Below are positions 16,789 to 28,770 of a DNA stretch of 64,000 nt, piece after piece. Within the stretch, counting starts at the first letter, position 1. Each line of letters begins with the position of its first letter. The stretch spans positions 310,001 through 374,000 of the forward strand of contig OY282361.1 of the NCBI GenBank assembly GCA_958295645.1. Direction: 5' to 3'. The notes beneath the pieces are model-generated. The model had not been told where the DNA came from and did not search any database. It was given only the letters and a program-made list of their open reading frames with translations. A program made the position numbers and the translations under genes. Origin of the DNA: Longimicrobiales bacterium. Lineage in GTDB: Bacteria; Gemmatimonadota; Gemmatimonadetes; Longimicrobiales; Gaopeijiaceae.

Positions 16789-19700
16789 ATGAGCGTCAAC
16801 ACCGGCACCGAGGCGCAACGCGCCTTCGACCTGCGGCCCGACCAGCCGATACGTGTTCCCTTCGAACGCATCTTCGCGGAAGCTGGCACAACCACAGAGA
16901 AGGGCCGCTGGTTCGAGCATCTGTTCATGGCGGTTGCGCGGGAGCTGCCCGACTTCCAAGTGGCGGACATCTGGACGTGGCGGGAGTGGCCCGAGCGCCT
17001 GGAGCGGACGGGGCTTGACGGACGCGACACGGGCATAGACCTCGTTGCGGAGCTGACGAGCGGCAGCTTGGTGGCCGTCCAGTGCAAGTGCTACGACGGC
17101 AGCCACCGCGTTGCCAAGCCGGACGTGGACAGCTTCATCAGCGCCTCCGACGGCGACGTGTTCGATCTCCGATGGGTTGTCTCCACCTGCCCTTGGAACG
17201 CCAACGCCGAGAGCGCGATCAGGAACAAGAAGCCGGAAGTCCGCCGGATCGACTTCCTGGACTATCTGGACCGCACGATTCTTGAACTGGGCAGGCCCAC
17301 CGAGAGGCGCGAGCCGAAGCCGTTGCAGCGCCAAGCCATTGAAGCCGTCTTGGACGGACTGGAGACCCAGGGCAACGACCGCGGCAAGCTGGTCATGGCC
17401 TGCGGCACGGGCAAGACGTTCACGTCCCTGCGGATTGCGGAGCGCTTGGTTCCCGACGACGGACGGATTCTCTTCGCGGCGCCGACGATCTCGCTGGTGT
17501 CGCAGGCCAGGCGGGAGTGGCTGACGCACACCGTCCGACCCATGTCGGCGCTTGTCGTGTGCTCCGACTCCACCGCGGGAGGCAGGGGGGAGCGGCACGA
17601 GGCCGGACCGGACGATCTGGTGTGTCCGGTACTGACGGATCCGTCGAAAGTAGCGGCGCATCTTGCGGGCGACAGCGGAGTCAAAGCGGTGTTCTGCACC
17701 TATCAGTCCCTCGACGTGGTCGTGAGGGCGCAACACGGGCACGACGATCCGCGCTTCGACTTGGCCGTCGCCGACGAAGCGCACCGCACAACGGGCATCG
17801 ACGTGGCCGACCGCAAGGTCAACTTCCAGCACTTTCATCACCGGCTGGACGCGAGCCGGCGCATCTACATGACGGCCACGGAGCGCATCTACAGGGCGAA
17901 GTCCAAGAGCAAGGCGAAGGAGAAGGGGCTGGACGTCGTGGACATGTCGGACTTGGACACGTACGGGCCTCTTCTGCACAAGCTCAAGTTCAAGGACGCG
18001 GTGGCGGCGGGCGAACTGTCGGACTACCGAGTGATCGTGCTGGGCGTCCACGAGAGCCATCTGACGCCGGGCATCCGCAGGTCGCTGGACAGCGCCGCCC
18101 CCAGCGCCAGGGTGGACGAGTCGGATCTGCTCCGGCTCTACGGAACCGCCCTGGCAATGAACGGATACGTGCGCGGCGGACCGGTCGAAGTGCCGAACCG
18201 CTTGCCTCGCACGCTGGCCTTCGCCTCGCGAGTCGTCCGTTCCCAGTGGTTTGCCGACACGCTTTCGACCAACCGCACGTTGAAGGGGCAAATCACACGC
18301 AGGCTGGAGGGCGACGCCCGGGCGCTGGACGTGCAGGCCGTGCACCTGGACGCCCGCAACAGCGCCATCGAACGAGGCGACAAGCTCCGCTGGCTGAACG
18401 ACGCGAAACGCGCCAACGAGTCCCGCATGATCTGCAACGTCCGCCTGTTCACCGAGGGCGTGGACGTGCCGGCGCTGGACGCGGTGTCGTTCCTCGATCC
18501 GCGAACCAGCCAGATCGACATCGTGCAGTCGGTCGGGCGCGTGATGCGGAAGGCCGAAGGCAAGCGGTTCGGCTACATCGTTGTCCCCGTGGCCCTGGCG
18601 GAAGGAGAGGACATCGTCGACAAGCTGGAGAAGCGAGACGACGACTACCGCGCGATCGGGCAGGTCCTTCGGGCGTTGCAGTCCCACGACGAGCGGCTGG
18701 CCGAGGCGACCGGCGACTTCGTGACGGCGCATCAGACGAAGCCCCTGTCGCAGCTCTCGCCGGAAGACCGCGACGAGACGTTCGCGCGCGAACGGCAACG
18801 GGAGTTCGACCTGACGCCCGTGGACGCCGCCAGCATCTTCACGCACATCGGCGCCGCATCCGGCCTGGGCAAGCCCGGCCAGATGACCGCCGAGACGATT
18901 GCCGACGCGGTGAAGCTGGCGGCTGCCTACCTTGCCGCCGACCAGGCGATTCTCGATGCCGCGCGTGATGTCTTGGAACTGCCGGCCGCCGAAGACAAGG
19001 AGACCTCCGTCGTCGCCGCGCTGCTGCTCTGCAACGCCTGTCTGCTGCATAAGCGGCTGAAGTCCGATTCCGAGAGCATGAGGGCCTTGCCGGGACTCGA
19101 CGGGGTTGCTCGCGCCAACGATCCTGTGGAGCGCCTCCGGGCCGCGTGGGAAGTCGTCCTCGAGAGGGACTACGAGCCCGTCTTCCGCCCCCCGCTGGCG
19201 CTTCTGGAGCGGTTCCAGTCTGCCTCTCTGAGGTACAGGGAATCCCCCCCCCCCCCCCCCCGGAATTCTTCCCTACGCGACGACAGAGGACCTTGCGATG
19301 TCGAGGGCCTCGCTCGACCATGCCGACTCACGCCACGACAACATCAAGAAGGCGGTGCAGGTCCTGGCAGAGCGCGCCGAGAGCCTTGCCGACTCGCTCA
19401 ACGAACTGGGTTACGACCACGCGGGGCCGCTGTACCACCGCATTCTCGGAAGCGCGGAGAGCGACGGCGCCTTCTACACGAACAACGTCTCCGCGCTCAT
19501 GTTGGCCGGACTGGCGCTCTCGCCCGACTTGGTGGACTGGTCCGACTACGAGGCGGCGACCAGCCTGCGAATCCTCGACCCTGCGTGCGGCACGGGCACG
19601 CTGCTCATGGCCGCGCTCAAGACGATCAAGGACAGGGGGCTCGAAGGTGGCGCGTTCACGCAGGACACGCTGACCGACGCGCACAAGAAGCTCGTAGAAC

Positions 19701-20046
19701 GATCGATCCACGGCGTGGACATCAACTATCACGCCACCCAGTTCGCCGCGTCCAACCTCACGCTGGGAGCGCCGAGCGTCGACTACGAGGCCATGTCGGT
19801 GCACACGCTCCAGCATGGTCCGCAGCGCGACGGAACGATACGCCTGGGCAGCCTGGAGCTTCTCCGGGACGCGGTGGCCGGCCAGGCGCCCGATCTGTTT
19901 GGGATTGCCAAGACCGCCAGGGTCGTGGAGCGGGGGCGTCCGAGCAAACACGCTCCCGCGCCGGACCTCCGGAAGCAGGACGTCGTCCTGATGAACCCGC
20001 CGTTCACTGCCAACGACAAGCGCGGACGCAAGTACGACAAGACTGA
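16789..20046 (+). CDS. Type ISP-like nuclease-helicase half, frameshifted at the C run
   Basis: Genuine protein runs from the ATG at 16789 to about residue 819. The N-terminal Mrr-like PD-(D/E)xK nuclease has D84 (GIDLVAE) and Q98-C-K100. The superfamily 2 helicase follows with Walker A ACGTGKT (204-210), DEAH 329-332, MTAT at 361-364, and QSVGRVMR near 580. A helical coupler region of about 200 residues ends in LRYRES before the proline run. Beyond the 18 C the frame stays open to 20046 but reads the methylase gene in the wrong frame, so the last 260 or so residues are not expected to fold. COG4889-type features such as EWPER...DTGIDLVAE and VQCK support the family. It starts 15 nt after radC. 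Confidence 0.8.
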   Translation: MSVNTGTEAQRAFDLRPDQPIRVPFERIFAEAGTTTEKGRWFEHLFMAVARELPDFQVADIWTWREWPERLERTGLDGRDTGIDLVAELTSGSLVAVQCKCYDGSHRVAKPDVDSFISASDGDVFDLRWVVSTCPWNANAESAIRNKKPEVRRIDFLDYLDRTILELGRPTERREPKPLQRQAIEAVLDGLETQGNDRGKLVMACGTGKTFTSLRIAERLVPDDGRILFAAPTISLVSQARREWLTHTVRPMSALVVCSDSTAGGRGERHEAGPDDLVCPVLTDPSKVAAHLAGDSGVKAVFCTYQSLDVVVRAQHGHDDPRFDLAVADEAHRTTGIDVADRKVNFQHFHHRLDASRRIYMTATERIYRAKSKSKAKEKGLDVVDMSDLDTYGPLLHKLKFKDAVAAGELSDYRVIVLGVHESHLTPGIRRSLDSAAPSARVDESDLLRLYGTALAMNGYVRGGPVEVPNRLPRTLAFASRVVRSQWFADTLSTNRTLKGQITRRLEGDARALDVQAVHLDARNSAIERGDKLRWLNDAKRANESRMICNVRLFTEGVDVPALDAVSFLDPRTSQIDIVQSVGRVMRKAEGKRFGYIVVPVALAEGEDIVDKLEKRDDDYRAIGQVLRALQSHDERLAEATGDFVTAHQTKPLSQLSPEDRDETFARERQREFDLTPVDAASIFTHIGAASGLGKPGQMTAETIADAVKLAAAYLAADQAILDAARDVLELPAAEDKETSVVAALLLCNACLLHKRLKSDSESMRALPGLDGVARANDPVERLRAAWEVVLERDYEPVFRPPLALLERFQSASLRYRESPPPPPRNSSLRDDRGPCDVEGLARPCRLTPRQHQEGGAGPGRARREPCRLAQRTGLRPRGAAVPPHSRKRGERRRLLHEQRLRAHVGRTGALARLGGLVRLRGGDQPANPRPCVRHGHAAHGRAQDDQGQGARRWRVHAGHADRRAQEARRTIDPRRGHQLSRHPVRRVQPHAGSAERRLRGHVGAHAPAWSAARRNDTPGQPGASPGRGGRPGARSVWDCQDRQGRGAGASEQTRSRAGPPEAGRRPDEPAVHCQRQARTQVRQD
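19244..19261 (+). repeat. 18-nt poly-C run inside the restriction-modification gene
   Basis: Eighteen consecutive C, the longest C run in the window, encodes prolines at the join between the helicase coupler and the methylase. Runs of this kind are classic sites for slipped-strand length change. In the present length the upstream frame reads S-PPPPP-RNSS. With one C fewer it reads S-PPPPP-GILPYATTEDLAMS and continues into the methylase. Confidence 0.9.
19285..19290 (+). promoter_or_regulatory. Ribosome binding site for independent methylase translation
   Basis: AGAGGA at 19285-19290 stands 7 nt before the ATG at 19298, just downstream of the C run. It would allow the methylase half to be made whatever the run length. 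Its use is inferred from position only. Confidence 0.45.
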
Positions 20047-21322
20047 ACTGAAGCGGATGCAGCAGGCGGAAAAGAGGACAAGGGAGGTGGTTGCGACGGC
20101 CGACCCCGAGGGCGGAGCGTCGATCGACTTCAACAGCATTCGGACGTTCTTCACGCCGATGGCCGACGTCTTGCTCAGGACCGACACCGGCGTTCTCGGC
20201 ACGATATTGCCGACCACTGCGTGCACGGGCACATCGGGCGTCGAAGAGCGCAGGTTTCTGGCAAGCCGCTTCCACATCGACGTGATAGTGACGACCCACG
20301 ATCCCAAGCGTCCCAACTTTTCGGAGAACACGGACATTCACGAGACGTTGCTGGTGTGCAGGCGCAAGACCGAGCGGAACGCCGGTGCTCCAACGCTCTT
20401 CGTGTCGCTCGCGCACAAGTGCGACCACCCGTCCGAGATTGCGGAAGTCTGTGATTGGCTGGCAGCGGTGCACGGCCGACGCCCGCACAAGTGGCACTCG
20501 CTCTTTGAATGGCCCGAGGCACGGGTGGCGGCGGGCGACTGGTCGCCTGCGCAGTGGTTCGACGGGGCATTGGCCCTGATCGCTGGCGAGATCGAAGCAC
20601 TGGCGGGGTTGACGCCATTGGGGGAGATGGCGCTGGTGGAGCCGGCGGGGCGAAGGGTGAGAGATGCCTTTCTGAACCCGCGGAAGAACAGGCCGAGACC
20701 CGACTACCCAGTCATGTGGCTCCACCAGACGGGCAAGCGGACGACGATGAGGGCGTCGGTCGATTATGTGACGGAGCCGAAGGCCGGCAAAGGGAGGTAT
20801 GCGCGGAAGCTGTGGCCGAGGGCGAGTCGATTGCTGGTCGCGGCGAAGCTCAACCCCCAGGCCGTTCGAACGGCCTCCATCCTCGTCGACGAGCCGGTGC
20901 TGGGCAACGCTTGGATCCCCGTAACGCCCCTTGGTGACTTGTCGGAGACCGCCGCGAAGGTGCAGATGCGCGTGCAGAAGGCATGGTGCGCCTTCCTGAA
21001 CTCGACGCCGGGCGCAGTTCTGTTCCTGAATCGCCGATCAAAGAAGCTGACCTACCCTGCCTATTCGCTCGATAGCCTACGGTCCCTGCCGTGTCCGGAC
21101 CCCTCGAAGGTGAAAATCGAGCGGCTTGCCACTGCGTGCGACGAACTCCGAGACCGGGAGCTCTTGCCCTGGCCGCAGATGGATCAGTGCCCGGTTCGGG
21201 CGCGGCTGGACGCCGTCGCCGGCGAGACGCTAGGCATTCAGCCCGAGCAAATCGCCAAATGGCGCGGCAAGCTGGTCGCCGAGCCGACGATCTCCAACAA
21301 GGAGCAAACTGTCGGCGAATAG
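19298..21322 (+). CDS. Type ISP-like N6-adenine methylase and target-recognition half
   Basis: Gamma-class adenine-N6 DNA methyltransferase of 674 residues. AdoMet motif I DPACGTG is at 94-100 and catalytic motif IV NPPF at 233-236. YTNN at about 60-63 occupies the usual YTP position. The C-terminal half resembles a target-recognition region (LNSTPGAVLFL...KLTYPAYSLDSLRSLPCPD), which in Type ISP enzymes reads the asymmetric site. The frame is open from 19232, so it can also be the C-terminal half of a fusion with the helicase. The ATG at 19298 has its own AGAGGA. It could act as a stand-alone methylase when the C run is out of frame. Confidence 0.82.
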   Translation: MSRASLDHADSRHDNIKKAVQVLAERAESLADSLNELGYDHAGPLYHRILGSAESDGAFYTNNVSALMLAGLALSPDLVDWSDYEAATSLRILDPACGTGTLLMAALKTIKDRGLEGGAFTQDTLTDAHKKLVERSIHGVDINYHATQFAASNLTLGAPSVDYEAMSVHTLQHGPQRDGTIRLGSLELLRDAVAGQAPDLFGIAKTARVVERGRPSKHAPAPDLRKQDVVLMNPPFTANDKRGRKYDKTELKRMQQAEKRTREVVATADPEGGASIDFNSIRTFFTPMADVLLRTDTGVLGTILPTTACTGTSGVEERRFLASRFHIDVIVTTHDPKRPNFSENTDIHETLLVCRRKTERNAGAPTLFVSLAHKCDHPSEIAEVCDWLAAVHGRRPHKWHSLFEWPEARVAAGDWSPAQWFDGALALIAGEIEALAGLTPLGEMALVEPAGRRVRDAFLNPRKNRPRPDYPVMWLHQTGKRTTMRASVDYVTEPKAGKGRYARKLWPRASRLLVAAKLNPQAVRTASILVDEPVLGNAWIPVTPLGDLSETAAKVQMRVQKAWCAFLNSTPGAVLFLNRRSKKLTYPAYSLDSLRSLPCPDPSKVKIERLATACDELRDRELLPWPQMDQCPVRARLDAVAGETLGIQPEQIAKWRGKLVAEPTISNKEQTVGE

Positions 21323-23893: not shown

Positions 23894-24058
23894 ATGACGG
23901 AGTGTCCGGAGTGCGGAGCGGAGATCGAGCTGGAGGCTGGGACGGTCGAGGCGGAGCTCCTCGAATGCCCGGATTGCGGGATCGAACTGGAGGTGCTGGC
24001 CCTCGATCCGGCGACGCTTGGACTTGCGCCGGAAGCGGAGGAGGACTGGGGCGAGTGA
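23894..24058 (+). CDS. lysW: Amino-group carrier protein LysW
   Basis: A small acidic carrier protein of 54 residues. The gamma-carboxyl of its C-terminal Glu is joined to alpha-aminoadipate or glutamate so that later steps act on a protein-bound intermediate. Diagnostic features are zinc-ribbon pairs C4/C7 and C25/C28 (CPEC, CPDC) and the invariant C-terminus EDWGE. The family is 53-56 residues long. It is the first gene of a complete carrier-protein operon, 44 nt before lysX. Confidence 0.95.
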
Positions 24059-24102
24059 CGCGCCCCCGGGGTCGGGCCTGAACGAGGCGGAGAGGAGTGG
24101 CG

Positions 24103-24948
24103 GTGAGGGTCGGATTCCTGCATTCGCTGATTCGCAAGGAGGAGAAGCTTCTCCTTGCCGAGTTGCGCGGGCGCCCGGGGGTGGAGCTGGTGTCGCTGGA
24201 CGACCGGCGGTTGGTGTTCGGCTTGGGGTCGCCGCCGGAGGTCGACTTGGTGCTGGAGCGGTGCATCAACCATTCGCGGGCCATGCACGCGTTGCGCCTG
24301 TTCGAGAGCGTCGGCACGCGGTGCGTCAACCGCTACGACGTGGCGAGGCGGTGCGGCGACAAGATCCTCACTGCGACGGCCTTGGCGGAGGCCGGGGTCC
24401 CGCAGCCCCGGTGGCGGGTGGCCTTCACGCCGGAGTCGGCGCTGGCGGCGATCGAGGAGCTCGGATATCCGGCGGTGCTCAAGCCGGCGGTGGGGTCGTG
24501 GGGGCGGCTGCTCTCCAAGATCAACGACCGGGACGCGGCGGAGACGGTGCTGGAGCACAAGTCGATTCTGGGGACGTATCACCACTCGATCTTCTTCGTT
24601 CAGGAATACGTGAGGAAGCAGGGCCGGGACATTCGCAGCTTCGTGATCGGCGACAACTGTGTCGCTGCGGTCTACCGGACGTCCGATCACTGGATCACCA
24701 ACACGGCGCGGGGCGCCCGGACTTCGCTGTGCCCGGTGACGGCGGAGATCGGCGAGCTTTCGCTGCGGGCGGCGGAGGCGGTGGGCGGCGGCGTGCTGGC
24801 GGTCGATCTGCTCGAGCGCGACGGCGAGCTTCTGGCGAACGAAGTCAACTACACCATGGAATTCAAGAACAGCATAGACGTGACCGGCGTGAACATCCCG
24901 GCGGAGATCGTGTCCTACGCGCTGGCCCAGCGAGGGCGATCCGCGTGA
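24103..24948 (+). CDS. lysX: LysW ligase (LysX/ArgX), ATP-grasp
   Basis: ATP-grasp ligase of the RimK-like group that attaches the amino acid to the terminal Glu of LysW. Motifs match Thermus LysX closely: [31 protein letters not shown]...[14 protein letters not shown], and [13 protein letters not shown] with the metal ligands E and N. The 281 residues are normal. The GTG at 24103 lies 5 nt after AGGAG; the GTG at 24097 is too close. Sequence alone does not tell me whether aminoadipate (lysine) or glutamate (arginine) is used. Confidence 0.92.
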
Positions 24949-25006: not shown

Positions 25007-26032
25007 GTGATTCGCGTCTCGATCGTCGGCGCCTCGGGCTACGCGGGGGGAGAGTTGCTCAGGCTGATGCTGGGCCATCCGAACGTCCGCGTCGGCCAAG
25101 TCACGTCGAACCGGTTGGCGGGGCGTTTCGTGCACGGCGCGCACCCGAACTTGCGCGGCGCCACGAAGCTCAAGTTTTCTGCGACGGACGAACTCGCCGG
25201 CTGCGACGTGCTGTTCGCCTGTCTGCCGCATGGCGAGACTTCGCGCCGGATCGACGAGTTTCGCCGGATCGCGGGCCGGGTCGTCGATCTCGGGGCCGAC
25301 TTTCGGCTGCCGGAGGCGGCCGCTTTCGAGCGCTGGTACGGGCGGGCGCATCCCCGGCCGGAGTTGCTGGGCCGTTTCGTCGGCGGCATCCCGGAGCTGC
25401 ACAGGGACGCTCTCGCCGGCGCGGACTTGGTGGCCTGCGCGGGCTGCAACGCGACCGCCGCCGTGCTCGGGCTTCTGCCGCTTTGTCGCGCGGGGCTGGT
25501 CGATTCCGCCGTAATCGACGTGAAGGTGGGATCGAGCGAGGCAGGCCGGACGGCAACTGCAGCCAGTCATCACTCGGAGCGAAGCGGGGCCGTGCGGTCG
25601 TACAAGCCGACCGGCCATCGCCACACCGGCGAGATCGTCCAGGCGCTGGGGGTCGAAGAGGTGCACATGTCGGCCACGGCCGTCGAGATGGTGCGCGGCG
25701 TGCTCGCCACCTGCCACGTCTTCGTGAACCAGGACGTGGACGACCGTGCGCTGTGGAAGCTGTACCGGGAGGCGTACAGGGCGGAGCCGTTCGTGCGCAT
25801 CGTCAAGGAGCGCGGCGGCGTCCACCGCTATCCGGATCCCAAGCTGCTCGCCGGGACGAACTTCTGCGACGTGGGATTCGAGCGCGACCCGCAGACCAAC
25901 CGCGTGGTGGTCGTCAGTGCGCTCGACAACCTGATGAAGGGAGCCGCGGGCCAGGCCACGCACGCCTTCAACGCGATGCACGGGTTGCCCGAGACGACGG
26001 GCTTGAAGTTCGCCGGCCTGCACCCCGTCTGA
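25007..26032 (+). CDS. lysY: LysW-aminoadipyl/glutamyl phosphate reductase
   Basis: ArgC-family NADPH-dependent reductase that turns the LysW-bound acyl phosphate into the semialdehyde. The Rossmann motif GASGYAGGEL is at about residues 6-15, and the catalytic cysteine is C147 (AGCNATAA). HRHTGEI and the C-terminal DNLMKGAAGQA are family marks. The 341 residues are normal. It acts after LysZ in the pathway although it is encoded before it. The GTG at 25007 starts right at the first beta strand. Confidence 0.92.
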   Translation: MIRVSIVGASGYAGGELLRLMLGHPNVRVGQVTSNRLAGRFVHGAHPNLRGATKLKFSATDELAGCDVLFACLPHGETSRRIDEFRRIAGRVVDLGADFRLPEAAAFERWYGRAHPRPELLGRFVGGIPELHRDALAGADLVACAGCNATAAVLGLLPLCRAGLVDSAVIDVKVGSSEAGRTATAASHHSERSGAVRSYKPTGHRHTGEIVQALGVEEVHMSATAVEMVRGVLATCHVFVNQDVDDRALWKLYREAYRAEPFVRIVKERGGVHRYPDPKLLAGTNFCDVGFERDPQTNRVVVVSALDNLMKGAAGQATHAFNAMHGLPETTGLKFAGLHPV

Positions 26033-26115: not shown

Positions 26116-26766
26116 ATGTGCCGCTTGTTGTGCGTCCACGGCCCGCAAGGCTTCGACATGGCCGAACACCTCGCCGCCTTCTCCCGCATCGCGCGAGACA
26201 GCAGTGAATACCAGGGCGACGGCTGGGGTTGCGCTTGGCTCGACGAGGGCCGCTGGCGCCTCTACCGTTGCCTGGCGCCGGTCTGGGAAGACTCGTTTCG
26301 TCCCGAAGGCCGCACCACTCTGCTTGTCGCGCACGCCCGTAGCGCGTTTCGGAACGAGGGAATCCGCCTGGAGAACAACATGCCCTTCTTCGACGGCGAG
26401 CGGGTGTTCCTCTTCAACGGGGAGCTTCACGGCGTGCGGATTCGCGAGAGCGGCAGGATCGGCGCCGAGAAGGTGTTCAACTTCGTGAAGCGCTTCGATC
26501 GGGGCGACTTCGCCGCCGCACTGCGCCAGGGCTTTGCGGCCATCGAGAAGCGGACTCGTTATGTTCGCGCTATGAACGTGATCGTCGCCGGCGCGTCGGG
26601 CGGCGTCCACTTCGCGAGCCGCTTCAACGAATCGCCGGACTATTTCCAGATGAGGATCGCCCAGGTCGACGGCGCCCGCGTGGTCTGCTCCGAGCCCTAC
26701 CCCGGAGGGGCCGAAGGATGGACGCGCGTGCCGGACGGCGCGGTGGCGGCCCTCGGCGAACCGTGA
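26116..26766 (+). CDS. Class II glutamine amidotransferase-like protein inside the lys operon
   Basis: A 216-residue Ntn-type glutamine amidotransferase domain. C2 directly after the initiator Met is the expected nucleophile (MCRLLCVHGP). GDGWGCAWL, VAHARSAFRNEG and FLFNGELHG match the glutamine-binding loops of the GlxB/YafJ-like group. There is no synthetase or transferase partner domain. The gene overlaps lysZ by 4 nt (GTGA), so it is made together with the carrier-protein enzymes. It is not part of the textbook LysW route, and I do not know its acceptor. It may supply ammonia or act as a glutamine hydrolase or gamma-glutamyl enzyme; that is open. Confidence 0.85.
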   Translation: MCRLLCVHGPQGFDMAEHLAAFSRIARDSSEYQGDGWGCAWLDEGRWRLYRCLAPVWEDSFRPEGRTTLLVAHARSAFRNEGIRLENNMPFFDGERVFLFNGELHGVRIRESGRIGAEKVFNFVKRFDRGDFAAALRQGFAAIEKRTRYVRAMNVIVAGASGGVHFASRFNESPDYFQMRIAQVDGARVVCSEPYPGGAEGWTRVPDGAVAALGEP

Positions 26767-27554
26767 TCCTGGTCAAGATCGGCGGCGGCGAGTCGATCAA
26801 CCTGCGGGGGATCGCGTCGGACTTGTCGGAGGTGGAGGAGCGCTTCATGGTCGTTCACGGCGCGAATGCGTTGCGCGACGCGCTGGGCCGCCGGCTCGGC
26901 ATGGAGAAGCGAGTGCTGACGTCGGTCTCGGGCTACGACAGCGTGTACACGGATACGGAGGCGATCGACCTGCTGCTGATGGCGTACGCGGGCCTGCGCA
27001 ACAAGCGCATCGTCGAGCTCTTGCAGATGCGGGGCGTGGCGGCGGTGGGACTGACCGGGCTGGACGGCGCCGTCGTGCGCGGGACGCGAAACAAGGGAAT
27101 CCGCGTGCGCGAGGGCGGCAAGACGTTGATCAAGCGAGATCTCTCGGGCAAGCCTCTCGCCATCAACAAGCGCTTGTTCGGCCTGTTGCTGGAGGGCGGG
27201 TTCGTGCCGGTGCTGACGGTGCCGATCGCGGACGAAAGCGGCAGGGCGATCAACTCGGAGAACGACGACATCGTGGCGATGCTGGGCAGGGCCCTGCAGG
27301 TGGACTGCGTGGTGCAGCTGATCGAGGCGGCCGGGTTCCTGGACGATCCGGACGACCCCGGCTCGGTGATCGGCAGCATGTCCCGCGGGGAGTTGGCGAT
27401 CCGCGAGGAACAGGCCCAGGGCCGCATGAAGCGGAAGATGCGGGCGTTGCGGCAACTGGCGGAGTCGACCGGGGCGCGCATCCTGATCGCGGACGGACGC
27501 ACGGCGCATCCGCTCCGAGATGCGCTGGCGGGCGGGGGCACGTTGATCTCGTGA
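26763..27554 (+). CDS. lysZ: LysW-aminoadipate/glutamate kinase
   Basis: Amino-acid kinase family member (ArgB-like) that phosphorylates the side-chain carboxyl of the LysW-bound amino acid. KIGGGESIN at the N-terminus replaces the usual KxGG phosphate loop. VVHGANA, VGLTGLDGAVVRG and AINSENDDIVAMLG follow the LysZ pattern. The 263 residues start at the GTG at 26763, whose last bases form the stop of the amidotransferase. lysJ follows by 64 nt. Confidence 0.9.
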   Translation: MILVKIGGGESINLRGIASDLSEVEERFMVVHGANALRDALGRRLGMEKRVLTSVSGYDSVYTDTEAIDLLLMAYAGLRNKRIVELLQMRGVAAVGLTGLDGAVVRGTRNKGIRVREGGKTLIKRDLSGKPLAINKRLFGLLLEGGFVPVLTVPIADESGRAINSENDDIVAMLGRALQVDCVVQLIEAAGFLDDPDDPGSVIGSMSRGELAIREEQAQGRMKRKMRALRQLAESTGARILIADGRTAHPLRDALAGGGTLIS

Positions 27555-27618: not shown

Positions 27619-28770
27619 GTGAACGCGGAGGCGGCGGAACGCTTGTTTGCGCTCGAGGTCTTCGCGAAACGGAATCTCGTGATCGTGCGCGGTCGGGGCG
27701 CCGAGGTCTGGGACGCGAAGGGGCGGAGGTACTTGGACTGCGTGGCCGGCATCGGCGTCGCCGGCGTGGGGCACGCCAACGAGGCGGTGGCGGAGGCGCT
27801 GGCCGCCCAAGCGCGCGTGCTGGTCGCCTGCGCGGGCGTCTTCTACAACGACAGGCGCGCGGCCCTCCTGCGCAAGCTGGTCGAGATCGCGCCCCCTGGA
27901 CTGGCGCGCGCCTTCCTGTGCAACTCGGGCGCGGAGGCGGTCGAGGCCGCCCTCAAGTTCGCCCGCCTCCACACGGGCCGAGCCAAGGTCGTGGCCGCCA
28001 TGCGGGGCTTCCACGGCCGCACCATGGGCGCGCTCAGCGCGACGCACAAGAAAGCCTATCGGGACGGTTTCGGGCCGCTCGTCCCCGGCTTCTCCTTCGT
28101 GCCGTTCAACGATCCCGCGAAGTTGCGCGGGGCGGTGGACGACGGTGTGGCGGCGGTCGTGCTGGAGCCTGTCCAAGGCGAAGGCGGCGTGCGGCCCGCG
28201 GAGCCCGGCTATCTGCGCGCGGCTCGCGAAGCCTGCGACGAGTCCGGCGCGCTCCTAGTGTTCGACGAAGTGCAGACGGGGTTCTGCCGCACGGGCAGGA
28301 TGTTCGCCTGCGAGCGCCACGGCGTGATTCCCGACATGCTTTGCCTGGCCAAGGGGATTGCGGGCGGGGTGCCCATGGCCGCGGTGCTCTGCCGCGACGG
28401 CCTGCGCGTCCCTCCCGGCAAGCATGGCACGACCTTCGGCGGAAATCCCCTGGCCTGCGCGGCCGCCCTCGCCGCCATCGCCTTCATGGAGGAGCGCCGC
28501 CTCGCCGAGCGAGCCGAAGAGCTGGGCGCCCGCTTCCGCGACCGGTTCGAGCGGCGGTTGCCGGCCCGAGTGCGGCAGGTGCGCCAAGCCGGGCTCATGA
28601 TCGGAGTCGAGTTGCGGGAGCGGTGCGGGCCGTTCTTGTCCGCGTTGGCGGATCGGGGGGTGCTGGCGCTGTCGGCCGGCCCCACGGTCCTCCGCCTTCT
28701 GCCTCCGCTCGTGGCGACCGAGGAGCAGATCGACGAAGTCGCCGAAGCCCTCCAGGCTGTGTTGGCCTAG
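27619..28770 (+). CDS. lysJ: LysW-aminoadipate semialdehyde/ornithine aminotransferase
   Basis: PLP-dependent class III aminotransferase (ArgD/LysJ type), 383 residues. NSGAEAVEAALKFAR and FHGRTMGALSAT form the phosphate-binding region. VFDEVQTGFCRTG is present, and the Schiff-base lysine is K245 (LAKGIAGG). It converts the LysW-bound semialdehyde to the amine. The releasing peptidase (LysK) that should follow is not in the window. The GTG at 27619 is the start. relA begins 7 nt after the stop. Confidence 0.9.
   Translation: MNAEAAERLFALEVFAKRNLVIVRGRGAEVWDAKGRRYLDCVAGIGVAGVGHANEAVAEALAAQARVLVACAGVFYNDRRAALLRKLVEIAPPGLARAFLCNSGAEAVEAALKFARLHTGRAKVVAAMRGFHGRTMGALSATHKKAYRDGFGPLVPGFSFVPFNDPAKLRGAVDDGVAAVVLEPVQGEGGVRPAEPGYLRAAREACDESGALLVFDEVQTGFCRTGRMFACERHGVIPDMLCLAKGIAGGVPMAAVLCRDGLRVPPGKHGTTFGGNPLACAAALAAIAFMEERRLAERAEELGARFRDRFERRLPARVRQVRQAGLMIGVELRERCGPFLSALADRGVLALSAGPTVLRLLPPLVATEEQIDEVAEALQAVLA

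Follow-up and report, generated by a model that had tools for sequence, protein, structure and literature searches.

The release step of LysW-dependent routes

LysK/ArgE, the [LysW]-lysine/ornithine hydrolase, is classified in NCBIfam, and generally regarded, as a metallohydrolase of the M20 family. It completes the known LysW routes, in which LysX attaches its substrate, through the amino group, to the gamma-carboxyl of LysW Glu54 (PMC10433800); given this mode of attachment, release of the cargo amounts to hydrolysis of a gamma-glutamyl amide. A gamma-glutamyl amide is also cleaved, with release of the amine, by EgtC, the gamma-glutamyl-hercynylcysteine sulfoxide amidohydrolase (PDB 4zfj/4zfk/4zfl) (PMC9103826), and the yeast (Dug2p-Dug3p)2 complex is a class II glutamine amidotransferase-type enzyme that cleaves the gamma-glutamyl bond of glutathione rather than glutamine (PMC6508711).

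In a 64,000-nucleotide stretch of a Longimicrobiales genome, hereafter the window, a class II glutamine amidotransferase-like gene (GAT; 26116..26766, + strand) lies within a LysW operon. We propose that GAT is most probably a LysW-gamma-ornithine/lysine hydrolase, non-orthologous and unrelated to LysK, which would unload the LysW carrier. This proposal is wholly comparative and computational, and draws on the gene itself, its operon, its conservation, the mutual exclusion with M20/LysK enzymes, the fold, one residue swap and LysW proteins ending in Gln. The kind of pathway is already known, and the candidate novelty is an unloading enzyme without relation to LysK. The reaction proposed for GAT, hydrolysis of the LysW-gamma-Glu amide, is identical to that of LysK; however, the two are unrelated in fold and chemistry (Cys-Ntn hydrolase versus metallohydrolase) and mutually exclusive in individual clusters. 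The routes of Thermus, Deinococcus, Sulfolobus and haloarchaea share with the GAT-type route the LysW, LysX, LysY, LysZ and LysJ orthologues, the EDWGE tail and the GSWGR motif, but differ from it in that the last enzyme would be GAT instead of LysK/ArgE and in that some of the GAT-type carriers end in Gln. GAT resembles EgtC in its Ntn fold, N-terminal Cys, Arg and Asn-Gly, but the two proteins are only about 21% identical, the EgtC Asp is replaced by Gly116, GAT lies in a lysW operon with lys/arg genes, not egt genes, as its immediate neighbours, and its proposed substrate is a protein tail. (Dug2p-Dug3p)2, for its part, differs from GAT in that it acts in a complex formed with Dug2p, has a small molecule as substrate and lies outside a biosynthetic carrier pathway. 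An earlier note on this DNA stated that no known LysW step needs a glutamine amidotransferase, and indeed we found no published step calling for one; an open-access search for literature joining LysW with "glutamine amidotransferase" returned nothing, and a report elsewhere is possible.

Organization of the operon

The genome containing the window is assembled as one contig of 2.89 Mb with an estimated completeness of 95.7%. The operon, entirely on the + strand, starts with lysW/argW (23894..24058), which encodes a 54-aa amino-group carrier protein (TIGR01206, 66.1 bits, cut-off 53.2; Pfam Zn_ribbon_LysW) with the C-terminus EDWGE, the Glu54 codon being located at 24053-24055. It is followed by lysX/argX (24097..24948; TIGR02144, 325.7 bits, cut-off 275.6), encoding the ATP-grasp ligase which loads Glu (or aminoadipate) onto LysW and which contains the GSWGR motif, as do all 64 of the 64 LysX sequences read, and by lysY/argC (25007..26032; TIGR01850, 373.5 bits, cut-off 233.6) for the LysW-gamma-glutamyl-phosphate reductase. 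Between the lysY/argC stop (26032) and the start of GAT lie 83 nt, and the TGA stop of GAT overlaps by 4 nt the GTG start of lysZ/argB (26763..27554), the LysW-gamma-glutamate kinase gene, whose score is barely above the cut-off (NF010659, 223.5 versus 223 bits). The conserved block ends with the aminotransferase gene lysJ/argD (27619..28770; TIGR00707, 430.8 bits, cut-off 410), downstream of which are rel (28778) and uvrB (31125). LysW, LysX, ArgC, LysZ and ArgD thus all exceed their NCBIfam cut-offs, and the W-X-Y-Z-J set of the carrier pathway is complete in the window; no lysK follows lysJ in this operon. The position of GAT between lysY and lysZ and the 4-nt overlap, both pointed out in the earlier note, are borne out by the ORF coordinates.

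The GAT ORF encodes a single-domain, EgtC-like Ntn amidohydrolase of 216 aa with the N-terminus MCRLLC. Its matches to Pfam GATase_4 (19.4 bits, cut-off 23) and to the NCBIfam EgtC equivalog TIGR03442 (46.8 bits, cut-off 218.65) are weak, and its assignment as a true EgtC was rejected on the latter score. Despite these weak profile scores, we regard the ORF as a genuine gene, since a scan of genome contigs recovered 64 homologues with 45-71% identity in the equivalent operon position. A pseudogene or shadow ORF was rejected because GAT is conserved and its model is well folded. Elsewhere in the window, a type IIG-like restriction-methylase (16789-21322, +) spans two overlapping frames, an Mrr/helicase half (16789-20046) and an N6 methylase half (19298-21322), and appears to be frame-shifted or split near 19300.

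Conservation and co-occurrence with LysW and LysX

The homologues are distributed across about eight phyla, including Gemmatimonadota, Acidobacteriota, Gamma- and Deltaproteobacteria, Binatota, Calditrichota, SAR324 and Bacteroidota/Ignavibacteriota, with the closest named ones found chiefly in Gemmatimonadota and Acidobacteriota. The gene order is conserved in relatives: lysY and/or lysZ adjoin GAT in 64 of the 64 loci, the immediate neighbours are lys/arg genes throughout, and loci on sufficiently long contigs display W-X-Y-GAT-Z-J, except that locus L066 locally shows only GAT-Z-J. With linkage in 64/64 loci, a chance neighbour was rejected. In genome G025, assembled as two contigs, GAT is retained on another contig than W-X-Y (loci L151 and L152), and lysZ and lysJ lie beside neither the W-X-Y block nor GAT.

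Among 98 relatives of the window's genome, LysX is above cut-off in ten, and a high-scoring GAT is present in 9/10 of these versus 0/88 of the others (Fisher p = 6e-12). Most relatives lack GAT, but they likewise lack LysX, so that absence of the gene from most of the relatives' lys operons, which in the earlier note would have told against its reading, is not what is observed. Co-occurrence with lysW was also recovered in a gammaproteobacterial order (109 genomes), where GAT is found in 41 of the 42 genomes with a LysW match versus 3 of the 67 without (p = 3e-25). The three GAT-positive genomes without LysW are contig ends displaying Y-GAT-Z-J, and the single reverse case is a lone LysW-like ORF (L238, 3207-3368, genome G172) on an 11.4-kb contig without LysX, LysY or GAT. 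The genomes compared are mostly metagenome assemblies, and absences are only as reliable as their completeness. The exception among the ten LysX-positive relatives, G035, encodes LysX and argJ without GAT or a recognisable LysK, on a contig that stops after lysZ in an assembly with 6% contamination; its LysW-X-Y-Z locus (L148, G035:C48:19000-31021) carries a LysX that clusters with Deinococcus in the tree.

GAT alternates with M20 hydrolases

The LysK-type model TIGR01902 is above cut-off in none of the 98 relatives and in none of the 22 GAT genomes of other phyla, whereas it exceeds the cut-off in four of 14 control genomes. The window's genome has eleven M20 matches, ten of them over the Pfam cut-off. 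None of the scanned M20 proteins reaches the [LysW]-lysine hydrolase model, the best listed score being 100.8 versus 363, and a hidden LysK among them was therefore rejected. Nor does GAT itself match M20 in the Pfam and NCBIfam profiles, its fold being EgtC-like. Conversely, in eight LysW clusters of the non-GAT type, from Deinococcus, Streptomyces, Staphylococcus and Pseudalkalibacillus plasmids, an M20 hydrolase is present in 8/8 and GAT in 0/8. The M20 domain of the Staphylococcus cluster is fused to a LysZ-type kinase, the very gene that GAT overlaps in the window. Apparent M20 matches inside GAT loci fall on lysZ, the Staphylococcus query being the kinase-M20 fusion, and were rejected; the only GAT locus with a separate M20 gene is L066, where it lies about 3.4 kb beyond lysJ and has no LysK-level score.

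This alternation bears on a different account of GAT, which we consider unlikely, namely that it is an editing or rescue enzyme, akin to a type II thioesterase, clearing stalled or wrong cargo from LysW and deamidating Gln-ending LysW, with the product released by an unlinked ArgE/DapE-like M20 enzyme. The most plausible substitute of this kind, which in principle could perform the release, does exist in the window's genome (L080, G000:C1:2390977; TIGR01892, 212 bits, under the cut-off of 297.7), and the carriers with Gln tails described below would require deamidation ahead of LysX. However, most L080 relatives at 50-60% identity belong to genomes that lack LysX, virtually all LysW operons of the gammaproteobacterial order include GAT, and GAT alternates with M20 hydrolases from cluster to cluster, which would be unnecessary for an accessory editor. 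An unloading role for GAT remains our preferred reading; it is also the one to which the earlier suggestion that the enzyme may remove a product comes nearest, in an operon without LysK.

LysW carriers ending in Gln

In GAT loci of several independent lineages, the LysW tail reads EDWGQ instead of EDWGE: L049, L072 and 7 of 30 further loci, one of the latter in the same genome as L049 (in all, L049, L072, L182, L183, L205, L207, L209, L210 and L211). All of these genomes carry GAT. Placed on the LysX tree, the nine EDWGQ sequences require five changes, four of which are forced by well-supported branches. EDWGQ occurs in 9/91 carriers of the GAT type versus 0/9 of the M20 type (p = 1), the controls being too few to show confinement, and we treat this distribution as supportive only.

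The E54A substitution in LysW turns Natrinema into an arginine auxotroph (PMC10433800). Since LysX needs the gamma-carboxyl, EDWGQ carriers would have to be deamidated before LysX could use them, and a gamma-glutamyl-amide hydrolase acting at the LysW tail could convert Gln54 accordingly. It is conceivable, although less likely than not, that GAT both matures and unloads LysW, acting at the start and the end of the carrier cycle, maturation being either deamidation of Gln54 to Glu or transfer of the cargo amine onto the Gln54-derived thioester.

Predicted fold and a residue swap in the active site

The AlphaFold2 model of GAT (pLDDT 94.7) predicts a class II glutamine amidotransferase/Ntn hydrolase fold. 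The nearest solved fold is EgtC (4zfl/4zfj; Z 25.8, 2.0 A over 201 aa), followed by the GlmS glutaminase domain (Z about 22), with PurF also among the best matches. The nucleophile Cys2 (26119-26121) is invariant in 43/43 GAT homologues, and Arg75 (26338-26340), Asn101 and Gly102 (26416-26421), also invariant, align with an EgtC-type reference set; in class II glutamine amidotransferases, the Arg binds the substrate alpha-carboxylate and Asn-Gly forms the oxyanion hole. Thus, of the glutamine-site motifs described as intact in the earlier note, Cys2, Arg75 and Asn101-Gly102 are so, but the alpha-amino-binding Asp is not. This canonical Asp (TTDSE motif), invariant in 9/9 EgtC-type proteins, aligns opposite Gly116 (GRIGAE motif; 26461-26463), and the profile alignment has Gly here in 68/68 GAT homologues, the divergent L150 displaying GTTGAAK at the site. 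We take the canonical Asp to be the counterpart of GlmS Asp123, which in GlmS structures binds the alpha-ammonium of free glutamine; this reading of the swap comes from the profile alignment and those structures rather than from model coordinates. Replacement of Asp by Gly, with the Arg retained, would suit a C-terminal gamma-glutamyl group on a protein, and the LysW tail fits this description because its alpha-nitrogen is in a peptide bond whereas its alpha-carboxylate is still free.

In the proposed mechanism, LysX, LysZ, LysY and LysJ would assemble the cargo on the gamma-carboxyl of LysW Glu54, ornithine in the window and lysine in some other phyla, and GAT would then bind the LysW tail. 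Arg75 would grip the free alpha-carboxylate of Glu54, and Gly116 would make space for its peptide-bonded alpha-nitrogen. Attack of Cys2 on the gamma-carbonyl would let ornithine depart, and hydrolysis of the resulting gamma-glutamyl thioester would regenerate LysW-Glu54. Equivalent chemistry could deamidate the Gln-ending LysW proteins.

The same residues weigh on the suggestion, also present in the earlier note, that the enzyme feeds glutamate or ammonia to the pathway. A glutaminase supplying glutamate locally, for LysX or LysJ, or ammonia would be in keeping with a class II fold containing Cys2, Arg75 and Asn101-Gly102, and glutamate is both the substrate of ArgX-type LysX and the amino donor of LysJ. 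We nevertheless judge this quite improbable: Gly116 takes the place of the Asp that would contact free glutamine's alpha-amino group in 68/68 homologues, the conserved operon encodes no ammonia-using partner for this single-domain protein, clusters with M20 hydrolases manage without GAT, and no enzyme would remain in the operon to carry out the release.

Arginine and lysine versions of the pathway

All ten LysX-positive genomes have an argF match, nine of them over the cut-off, and lysA is over the cut-off in 10/10. By contrast, argJ is absent from the nine GAT genomes (the window's and eight relatives) and present in the lone LysX genome without GAT, the contrast being modest (0/9 GAT genomes versus 36/89 others, p = 0.024). 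Given the presence of argF and lysA and the absence of LysK and argJ in the nine GAT genomes, the product of the window operon is most likely ornithine destined for arginine, in keeping with the reported use of the LysW-glutamate ornithine route by some Gemmatimonadota (PMC11651109). In three other operons (L061, L069, L076), a homocitrate-synthase-like gene, scoring under the equivalog cut-off, lies between lysW and lysX, which suggests a lysine version. Since GAT accompanies both cargoes, it should act on a shared step, as common unloading requires.

The least probable alternative is that the operon builds a different metabolite on LysW, with GAT adding or removing a product-specific group, as LysW-type carriers also function in other pathways, in Streptomyces and in further plasmid clusters (PMC9303977), but the core operon consists of W-X-Y-Z-J and GAT only, is widespread and single-copy, has argS or a homocitrate-synthase-like gene nearby in some loci, and occurs with argF and without argJ in a phylum with a reported LysW-glutamate ornithine route (PMC11651109). 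The modified pathway envisaged in the earlier note is accordingly less likely, ordinary ornithine/arginine biosynthesis fitting the presence of argF and lysA and the absence of argJ.

If GAT does unload LysW, it would supply the last step that is missing from arginine/lysine biosynthesis on a carrier protein in about eight bacterial phyla. Many of these are represented solely by metagenomes and at present are readily recorded as having no LysK. In the Caldithrix genome paper, a LysWXZYJ-Hcs locus is described, LysK is not named and the lysine pathway is said to need further investigation (PMC5317091). GAT would further be an Ntn hydrolase acting on the gamma-glutamyl amide of a protein tail and substituting for a metalloenzyme, and LysW proteins ending in Gln would find an explanation.

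Two plasmid loci are worth recording separately. A Thermomicrobium roseum plasmid has lysX annotated (L171, 7896-8777) without other lys genes within the 16.7-kb stretch shown. A Staphylococcus epidermidis plasmid carries a LysW-type cluster (L232, 10962-12803) with two transketolase-like genes and the kinase-M20 hydrolase fusion; it resembles a small-molecule biosynthesis cluster, and similar clusters are found in L233 and L237.
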